NCBI GenBank assembly: GCA_017477465.1
Contig: JAFUVU010000055.1
Location: 1-58,860 of the forward strand
DNA: 58,860 nucleotides
Direction: 5' to 3'
From: Bacteroidales bacterium
GTDB lineage: Bacteria > Bacteroidota > Bacteroidia > Bacteroidales > UBA932
Below are positions 4,839 to 42,329 of the stretch, one piece after another (position 1 is the stretch's first letter; each line of letters starts with the position of its first letter). The notes beneath the pieces are model-generated. The model saw only the letters and a list, made by a program, of their open reading frames with translations, did no database searches and was not told the origin of the DNA. The position numbers and the translations under genes were made by a program.

Positions 4839-4993
4839 CATTTCGACCGGAGTAAAGCGGAGTCGGTGGATCTCTTTTGTACCAAGTGACGCCGGGACGA
4901 GTTATGTCACTGATGACTGGATTACGCTTTTGCTGAAATCTTGATTTACAATGTACTGCGAAGCGGCTCAAGCTAGTCGGCGCAAAAAACATT
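4839..4993. repeat. Composite dispersed repeat, copy 2
   Basis: Second copy of the 149-365 repeat: CATTTCGACCGGAGTAAAGC...GGATCTCTT at 4839-4875, then the conserved block CGAGTTATGTC ... ATGACTGG ... CTTGATTTACA ... GCGAAGCGGCTC ... AGTCGGC up to 4993. The same orientation and the same order of sub-blocks as copy 1 support a single mobile or amplified unit. Confidence 0.6.
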
Positions 4994-5008
4994 TCACATC
5001 GTCTGGGT

Positions 5009-5186
5009 TGGACCTGGTCCAGCATGTTTTTGGTCGCGGTCTCCTGCCTTTTTGGACCAGGTCCAGTATGTTTTTGGACGCGGTCGTATTTGATGCCTTG
5101 GACCTGGTCCACCACATGTGGCCCTGACGGCCCTAGAAGCCATACTCATTGGACCAGGTCCAGCCACTAAAATTGGACCTCGTCCA
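5009..5186. repeat. Array of TGGACC(A/T)GGTCCA palindromes
   Basis: The perfect 13-base palindrome TGGACCTGGTCCA or TGGACCAGGTCCA occurs at 5009, 5053, 5099 and 5150, and an imperfect copy (TGGACCTCGTCCA) at 5174. Spacing is 44, 46, 51 and 24 bp. The first spacers share 'ATGTTTTTGG.CGCGGTC', so these are degenerate tandem units. The same palindrome occurs twice inside tilS (41542, 41584). Confidence 0.85.
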
Positions 5187-5218
5187 AAACCTACCGTCGG
5201 TAATCCACTCAGCGAAGA

Positions 5219-5280
5219 TGGAGAGGGTAGTTGCAGAAGGGTAATTTTCGGGCCGAACCCTTCTGCAACTACCCTCTCCA
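5219..5280. repeat. Perfect 24-bp-arm inverted repeat
   Basis: Positions 5219-5242 are the exact reverse complement of 5257-5280, separated by a 14-base loop (AATTTTCGGGCCGA). No T-run follows on either strand, so it is unlikely to be only a terminator. It could be an inverted-repeat mobile element, a recombination site or an RNA hairpin. Confidence 0.85.
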
Positions 5281-5298
5281 CCTCCGCACAAACATACC

Positions 5299-5326
5299 AA
5301 AAAAACCGCCCGGGGAAACCGGACGG
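5299..5326 (-). terminator. Intrinsic terminator of the nucleotidyltransferase gene
   Basis: Read on the minus strand, CCGTCCGG (loop TTTCC) CCGGGCGG forms an 8-bp stem with one mismatch, followed by seven T. It lies 40 bp after the stop of the gene at 5366-5665. Confidence 0.8.
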
Positions 5327-41144: not shown

Positions 41145-42329
41145 TTATTTGACGCGCAGGATTCTGCGCGTCTTTTTTGTTACCCTGACGCTGTTGTCGA
41201 TGCAGTAGGGGATTACTGCCAGGATGTGATGACGGTCCGCGCTGTCCCGAAGAAGAGGCACGAAAGGCTTCTCGTCGGCGCTGATGTGATGGTCCGTGAA
41301 CCAGTCTTGCATTTTCTTTCGGCCTGGAGCTCCCAGCGGCTTAATCCAGTCTCCACTCTCCCATGGGCCGATGAACTTTGACGCTGTCCCGTCCCGAAGC
41401 AAACTCTCGCATGCCTCAGGCGACAATTTGTCAGCATCCAGAATCAGTGTCCCCGGAGCTTGTCTGACCGGCTGGGTTCCGTCCCATAACTCCTCGGAAA
41501 AACTAATGATGCCATTTTCTCCTACTACGCACAGAGGGTGGTGGACCTGGTCCACAGTGTTCTGGTGTTGATGGTAACCTCCTTGGACCTGGTCCACCCC
41601 TCGGCTCACCCCTGGATTACCTTCTGGGTCCACCCCTGGGTCCACCCCTCGGCCCACTCTTTGGTCCAAACTTGGGTTCAGATTCTTGAGTTGTTCTGAG
41701 AACTGCTGCATATTCCGGTTCAGGACCTTCACGAAACTGGGGTTGATCTCTTTGAAGATCGGAAATACCAGGTTGCGGATTTTGTTGCGTTTGTAGTCGT
41801 TGAGGGCGTTTGTCGCATCTTCGCGCCAGGAAAGCCCGTTCTCGGCGGCAAAGGCTACGATGTCGTCCCTTGTCATGCCAAGAAGAGGGCGGAGAAGCGG
41901 AATGTCGGCAAAATCGGGGTCGGGGATAAAGCCGGAAGCTTTCATGCCGATTAGACCTCGCAGGCCGGTGCCGCGTAACAAATTCAGAATCAGCGTTTCT
42001 GCGTTGTCATTGGCGTTGTGCGCAACTGCGACGCCGGAGTAGCCATGTTCGCGGCAAAGCTGTCCGAACCAATGATAGCGCAGGCGGCGGGCCGCCATTT
42101 CTATCGAGATGCCTTCGGAGGCTGCAAATGCCTGAGTGTCAAAGTGTTTTACATGGCAAGTGATGCCATGTGACGCAGCCCAGGAGCGGACCAATGCTTC
42201 GTCGGCATCGCTGTCGGCCCCTCTTAGACGGAAGTTGCAGTGCGCAATGGCGAAAGGCCCGCCTTCCAGACGGACCTTTTCTGCCAGGCACATTGAATCT
42301 ATGCCTCCGCTGACTGCAACGAGGAGCAT
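41145..42329 (-). CDS. tilS: tRNA(Ile)-lysidine synthase with repeat-derived insert
   Basis: 394 residues. LLVAVSGGIDSMCL is the PP-loop, followed by IAHCNFRLRGADSD, AVAHNANDNAETL and GTGLRGLIGM, the N-type ATPase of TilS. It puts lysidine at position 34 of tRNA-Ile(CAU). Residues ~213-263 (DQRVGRGVDPGVD ... QGGYHQHQ) are a low-complexity stretch encoded by GGACC-GGTCC repeats (41540-41690) where the family has its central domain; after it the C-terminal domain (LILDADKLSPEA, KFIGPWESGDWIKPLG) resumes in frame. The gene follows DUF3078 by 3 bp in the proS operon. Confidence 0.9.
   Translation of the reverse strand: MLLVAVSGGIDSMCLAEKVRLEGGPFAIAHCNFRLRGADSDADEALVRSWAASHGITCHVKHFDTQAFAASEGISIEMAARRLRYHWFGQLCREHGYSGVAVAHNANDNAETLILNLLRGTGLRGLIGMKASGFIPDPDFADIPLLRPLLGMTRDDIVAFAAENGLSWREDATNALNDYKRNKIRNLVFPIFKEINPSFVKVLNRNMQQFSEQLKNLNPSLDQRVGRGVDPGVDPEGNPGVSRGVDQVQGGYHQHQNTVDQVHHPLCVVGENGIISFSEELWDGTQPVRQAPGTLILDADKLSPEACESLLRDGTASKFIGPWESGDWIKPLGAPGRKKMQDWFTDHHISADEKPFVPLLRDSADRHHILAVIPYCIDNSVRVTKKTRRILRVK
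41151..41178 (+). terminator. Intrinsic terminator of gpmI-lpxD
   Basis: GACGCGCAG-GATT-CTGCGCGTC, a perfect 9-bp stem, followed by six T. It lies within the last ten codons of the convergent tilS gene (ending TRRILRVK). Confidence 0.9.
41542..41690. repeat. GGACC-GGTCC palindromes inside tilS
   Basis: TGGACCTGGTCCA occurs at 41542 and 41584 (42 bp apart), followed by degenerate GGGTCCACCCC units up to ~41690. It is the same palindrome as the intergenic array 5009-5186. The coding frame is preserved through the whole block. Confidence 0.85.

Follow-up and report, generated by a model that had tools for sequence, protein, structure and literature searches.

Arrays built from a 13-bp palindrome, P (TGGACCWGGTCCA), recur within and between genes in a genus of gut Bacteroidales, and we consider it probable that they are non-autonomous repeats of the REP/BIME type, spread by a dedicated RAYT-like transposase (Y1, HUH-type) and entering genes much as Rickettsia palindromic elements (RPEs) do. 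The best-known palindromic inserts that keep the reading frame are those of Rickettsia and Wolbachia, whose mode of movement is, to our knowledge, unsettled. The window analysed here is the whole stretch of 58,860 nt on contig JAFUVU010000055.1, from the genome designated G000, for which an initial annotation had proposed, should the pattern be general, a gene-invading palindrome family with RPEs as precedent. Presence in at least 28 genes from 14 assemblies, orthologues with empty sites and a tilS gene free of frameshifts bear out this proposal. The anatomy of the arrays, their copy number, the 28 in-frame genes, the empty loops, the reading register, the hairpin potential and a transposase gene that adjoins arrays and occurs in the same genomes were observed directly; catalysis by the encoded protein, transposition through single strands, and translation and tolerance of the inserts are inferred.

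A scan of the window located exact P copies at 5009, 5053, 5099 and 5150 and a worn copy with one mismatch at 5174. Together they form an intergenic, unstranded array (5009..5186) with steps of 44, 46, 51 and 24 nt, just as initially annotated (four palindromes and one imperfect copy), and the two exact copies reported within tilS were likewise found, at 41542 and 41584. Allowing up to two mismatches, the window holds nine P matches, compared with a mean of 1.15 and a maximum of four in 100 shuffles, none of which reached nine. Comparison of at least 142 clusters in at least 118 loci (the window, nine loci of its own genome and at least 108 GTDB loci) revealed a single plan, the commonest steps between P starts being 51, 46, 22, 68 and 24 nt. 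At its centre is a 38-nt core spacer flanked by P, whose length (51-nt step) was seen at least 96 times among the at least 118 loci; outward on both sides follow P or worn P copies after about 24 and then about 22 nt. The arms are inverted copies of each other and the full unit is dyad-symmetric, its successive P starts being separated by 46, 51 and 46 nt. The window array conforms to this plan, its 38-nt core spacer (51-nt step) lying between the two core-flanking P copies at 5112..5149 (unstranded). The full repeat unit thus exceeds the palindrome described initially. The 68-nt step makes up 2/114 steps within stop-free frames versus 40/235 outside.

Folded as single-stranded DNA, units gave z-scores of -4.15, -5.60 and -8.53, the window array being the one at -5.60. 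A reading of the arrays as an RNA gene was rejected: four array loci searched against Rfam gave no match at the gathering score, and the core lacked convincing covariation, one arm pair (positions 32 and 123) being exceptional at z 8.3. The repeat stretch of tilS, taken as RNA, folds about as well as its shuffles (z -0.97). The core-covariation analysis and the middle-base analysis below exclude twelve units that scored low or were tandem. The window array is enclosed in a 387-nt stretch (4940..5326, + strand) that has a 92% identical counterpart (362/394 aligned columns) elsewhere in the genome, on contig C52. Downstream of the array lies a perfect 23-bp inverted repeat (5220-5242 / 5257-5279, 14-nt loop), which was copied together with the array on C52.

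The genome-wide search that the initial annotation had recommended found 58 exact P copies in the window's own genome, an assembly of 2.42 Mb in 73 contigs with a completeness of 82.5%, and none of a reversed control. P is always clustered there: the 58 copies fall into 12 clusters, each of at least two copies, spread over nine contigs, and four of these 12 places are intragenic, in tilS, murB, a THUMP-like methyltransferase gene and tatD. Among all clusters listed, 96/142 lie outside long stop-free frames. Pairs of P occurred in 8/151 sampled genomes of the genus (37 pairs in G000, 29 in G149, 19 in G101, 12 each in G028 and G172, five in G098, three in G171 and one in G023). An order-wide sample of 295 genomes showed P pairs only in the window's own genome, with none in the 293 genomes outside the genus (one other of the 295 belongs to the same genus). 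The at least 108 GTDB loci with P belong to at least 23 assemblies of Bacteroidales or Bacteroidia, whose titles often name the rumen, reticulum or omasum, and, for two loci set aside as chance occurrences, to other phyla: L160 (Phycisphaerae) and L114 (Oscillospiraceae), where VDQVHFHEVGA in LarC looks, in our judgement, native.

All 30 P-holding open reading frames scanned with Pfam, among the loci listed, matched a protein family. Three were excluded from the gene set (L114, and L120 and L154, in which the array sits near the start of the frame), and the uvrA gene of L081 was added by its flanking motifs and its position in the uvrA tree, bringing the total to 28. P is therefore intragenic and in frame in at least 28 genes of eight kinds from 14 assemblies: tilS, uvrA and the THUMP-like gene (five each), murB (four), MATE (three), and tatD, an aminotransferase and a glycosyltransferase (two each). 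In murB, two different loops were struck, one in L070 and the other in L007, L062 and L137. The complete 46-51-46 unit is present in 14/28 genes and the 51-nt step in 20/28, with the core P copies reading GPGP/GPGP in 16 of these 20; in tatD of G000 the spacer of the 51-nt step is not the core. One register is shared by 16 of the 19 genes that have a true core; in it the outer P reads DQVQ before the core and WTRS after it, and the exceptions are three MATE orthologues. These MATE genes (L086, L099 and L128) have a core-like spacer in a register different from that of the other genes. Over all 28 genes, the 115 P copies are divided 50, 43 and 22 across the three registers, orthologous rows not being independent in these register counts or in the base counts below.

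Register openness was assessed in 95 core units among the loci listed. The GPGP register was stop-free in at least one orientation in 29/30 units within long stop-free frames, where openness is partly by construction, and in 45/65 outside them, and the two other registers were stop-free in 8/30 and 20/30 units inside and in 30/65 and 23/65 outside. Counted per orientation, the GPGP register was open in 59/130 cases outside frames versus 17% after spacer shuffling. As this register tends to be open, the register bias may follow from openness. No codon signature was detected in the spacers: the third/(first+second) position ratio was 1.009 in 16 in-gene units, which share one orientation, and 1.012 in 60 units outside, leaving codon-level selection on the peptide throughout unsupported. 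Bias at the middle base of P is confined to copies in which that base alters the residue. In the outer P, where it does so, A and T stand at 34:5 in frames versus 15:13 outside (p 0.004), whereas in the core P, where the change is silent, the counts are 30:16 versus 65:55 (p 0.22). We read the inserts as probably translated and weakly filtered against hydrophobic residues, with no conserved functional peptide.

The tilS gene of the window (41145..42329, - strand) is an intact short form, an open frame of 394 aa with the insert in a linker. Its frame is open from end to end, with no frameshift that would mark a pseudogene; the PP-loop domain precedes the insert and a TilS_C match of 20.4 bits (cut-off 22) follows it, in line with the earlier statement that the C-terminal domain resumes in frame. 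Two P copies (41542..41554 and 41584..41596, unstranded, both read VDQV) are joined by 12-nt tandem units resembling half of P (41594..41657, unstranded, read GVDP and variants), and this tandem array corresponds to the degenerate GGGTCCACCCC units noted before. With two P starts 42 nt apart plus 12-nt units, what tilS carries is not a full unit but a derivative that has worn or been amplified locally. P also stands in the same tilS linker in GTDB loci L055, L056, L109 and L140. The initial annotation had the repeats standing where the middle of TilS should be; the insert is indeed in the linker, but the idea that P displaced the middle did not hold. In the alignment with relatives, the middle region is missing in 9/30 tilS loci read, and only G000 of these nine has P. 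Since the eight other short forms (G061, G081, G075, G019, G028, G078, G062 and G034) lack both P and the middle, the missing region is not tied to the palindrome. Pfam detected no middle domain in the short forms of G028 and G034, nor in the sole long form scanned, G065, so it is from the alignment alone that the loss is known. A structure model of TilS, proposed initially as a way to see whether the insert forms a surface loop, reached a mean pLDDT of 53.3, lowest at residues 221-270 (22-29), and was too weak to place the insert.

Sites without the insert are found even in a P-bearing genome: in G028, the two homologous parts of uvrA and of murB abut. The P peptide occurred in 0/30 uvrA loops of relatives. 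On a uvrA tree of 33 rows, from which L192 and L197 were left out for lack of an anchor, the P label of five rows requires three changes, at least two of them forced by supported branches, a pattern that suggests gain and loss, or several gains.

A Y1_Tnp profile search of 20 genomes gave 57 matches in 19 of them, and P was nearby in five of the 56 matches examined (L244, L245, L246, L247 and L254). Three of the five (L244, L245 and L246) fall within one supported clade of eight and into the P-linked subfamily described below, and the two from G149 (L247 and L254) lie elsewhere; a single clade for all P-adjacent transposases was rejected, as the five need four changes on the 56-row tree. The window genome's own transposase gene (C54:15255-16175) was found from the array on contig C54 and is absent from the profile matches. 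It lies between two clusters, 54 nt from the last P of the one that precedes it and about 1 kb from the one that follows, and cognate repeats flank the RAYT-like gene. The P-linked subfamily (at least 66% identity to this protein) is present in 6/151 genomes of the genus, and P pairs occur in 6/6 genomes that bear it versus 2/145 others (Fisher 1.9e-9, kinship ignored). Exact P starts lie 46-94 nt upstream of the gene in G000, G172, G028, G101 and G098, and in G171 a variant array, TGGACCTAGTCCA, stands upstream with the same 46-51-24 steps. Among the GTDB loci listed, which were chosen for P, there are eight subfamily genes (ten pieces, two genes being split by locus borders) with P at 36-145 nt. 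No subfamily gene was found in G149 (29 P pairs, 82% complete), whose other-clade RAYTs have P within 421 nt upstream (L254) and 137-159 nt downstream (L247), or in G023, which has one P pair. The own protein scores below curated cut-offs (15.5 of 23 bits for Y1_Tnp, 11.1 of 80 for the NCBIfam RAYT model), and the G028 member, with its neighbours, reached 23.2 bits for Y1_Tnp. Kinship with RAYTs is suggested by full-length matches to proteins above the Pfam cut-off and by motifs: NHCH is present in 5/6 aligned members, NHGH in the sixth and YIPRN in 6/6, a possible catalytic role being suggested by resemblance to the table in PMC6006769. A model of the protein (mean pLDDT 45.7) was too weak for a check of the motifs. 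The RAYT-like gene of G098 (L244:1840-2895) ends in in-frame P copies at the C-terminal end. Because a Y1-transposase-like gene adjoins the arrays, the nearest kin of the P family looks like the REP/RAYT kind.

More distant transposases stand with other palindromes: CCCACCTGGCCC in G019 and G150, GACCTTCCCC beside the transposases of G157, G132, G034, G104 and G121, and GACCTTGCCC beside those of other distant relatives. Arrays of GGGGAAGGTC/GACCTTCCCC are present in 5/151 genomes, with half-site steps of 22, 25, 50, 25 and 22 nt. These sister arrays, with half-site GGGGAAGGTC, were seen in 15 loci at 12 places (L330-L344), with a spacing close to that of P arrays and a different sequence. An intragenic habit was not clearly seen for them, 3/12 places lying in frames of at least 200 codons, counted by length.

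Another enzyme, or recombination, might disperse the arrays, the RAYT-like gene being merely adjacent or carried by an array. Such dispersal would suit the many arrays of G149, a genome with no subfamily gene and two other-clade RAYTs near P, as well as the lone pair of G023 and the C52 copy, in which non-P flank from either side travelled along with the window array. We nevertheless judge it unlikely, given that all six subfamily genomes are P-positive versus 2/145 others, that P occupies the same upstream position in several species, and that sister transposases come with sister palindromes at nearly the same spacing. The in-gene copies could also have arisen locally and not by insertion, a chance VDQV or half-site stretch in fast-evolving loops having given rise to them through slippage or gene conversion. 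The window tilS copy, mostly 12-nt tandem units, the 75-nt tandem steps in tatD of G000 and the native-looking VDQVH in LarC of L114, from an unrelated bacterium, are compatible with this, but 14/28 genes have the 46-51-46 unit in full, with its arms and core, which slippage cannot yield in eight protein families, and relatives have empty sites, making a local origin very unlikely. It seems scarcely probable that the array functions in binding a chromosome-organising or regulatory protein and is kept for that role, in genes too: the regular 22-24 nt steps and exact dyad P copies seen in many species would suit such a site, yet pairs are present in only 8/151 genomes of the genus and at places that differ between relatives, a patchiness easier to reconcile with mobile DNA than with a required site. 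Against the preferred reading, REP/BIME-like repeats spread by a RAYT-like transposase, we count the sub-cut-off scores, G149, the null result for a codon signature, openness that is partly by construction for units picked from frames, sister arrays that are not clearly intragenic, the register of the MATE genes and a tilS copy that is not a full unit.

Intragenic REPs are already known, and the P family is best read as a variant of them. REPs of the GTAG/CGTC superfamilies have been described within genes, including uvrA, in Thioalkalivibrio and O. terrae (Di Nocera 2013, PMC3733652); in the available text of that paper, GTAG REPs are tied to tyrosine transposase genes, inserts are mostly of 20 to 30 residues, with clusters of 43 to 82, and Bacteroidetes are mentioned once, for CGTC repeats. 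The great majority of REPs are extragenic (PMC2817692, available text). Like REPs, P is short, palindromic and multicopy, in arrays or inverted pairs mostly outside genes, with some copies intragenic, including in uvrA. Unlike the GTAG/CGTC REPs as that text presents them, the 13-bp P ends without a GTAG or CGTC tag (CGTC is present only within worn arm copies of the array consensus), and the array is a fixed multi-P unit with a core, in one register in 16/19 genes, and belongs to a Bacteroidales genus. RPEs are 100-150 bp repeats within genes that keep the frame and lie at solvent-exposed places, and orthologues carry inserts at one place, possibly a hotspot (PMC3767692, available text). P shares with them the in-frame presence in genes of varied function (28 genes, eight kinds) with the frame kept; judged from the same text, it differs in its bacterial hosts, apparently in its sequence, and in the candidate transposase gene beside its arrays. 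TnpA-REP genes of Bacteroidetes (subclass 2.6) are flanked by atypical structures (Quentin 2018, PMC6006769). The table of that paper gives NH[LIV]H and YIH[QN]NP for them, in contrast to NHCH and YIPRNA here, and terms for intragenic copies had no match in its available text. A description of the P family was not found in the titles and abstract openings of the open-access papers that literature searches listed.

These observations are best explained by a model in which the adjacent RAYT-like transposase would spread P arrays, a single-stranded copy folding into a long hairpin and being inserted at numerous sites. Where an insertion falls within a protein gene, in a variable loop or linker, the copy may survive if the frame is kept. 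As one register of the unit is more often free of stops than the others, most survivors would share it, and each would lengthen its protein by about 52 residues. Degenerate forms such as the tilS copy could then result from wear and slippage. Neither a target duplication nor an exact junction was established for the P inserts.

A further proposal, which we find possible although somewhat short of probable, is that the P array acts as a portable in-frame cassette: one dominant open register would admit it to the loops of housekeeping enzymes, where it would add a hydrophilic peptide of about 52 residues, a few loops (the tilS linker, two in murB, and uvrA) would be common to several unrelated repeat families, and mobile DNA would be a regular source of new loops in the genus. 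The P family offers a candidate transposase, many species that either have or lack copies, and recurrent entry into one set of enzymes, so that the movement of the element, the retention of its register and the relevance of the added peptide can be tested. Annotators should also be aware that unusual loops in TilS, MurB or UvrA of such bacteria may be mobile DNA. The loops that hold P in some species are, in relatives, empty or occupied by different repeats: CHSERSEES occurs in G028 (tilS) and G062 (murB), SSEVEKS in G075 (uvrA) and G081 (murB), and VIPGSDRES in G075 (tilS). The loci of these repeat-like loop peptides are L028 and L026 (tilS), L206 and L207 (murB) and L177 (uvrA). The DNA behind CHSERSEES, TCTGAGCGAAGCGAAGAATC, is multicopy in 17/20 genomes searched, with up to 83 copies.
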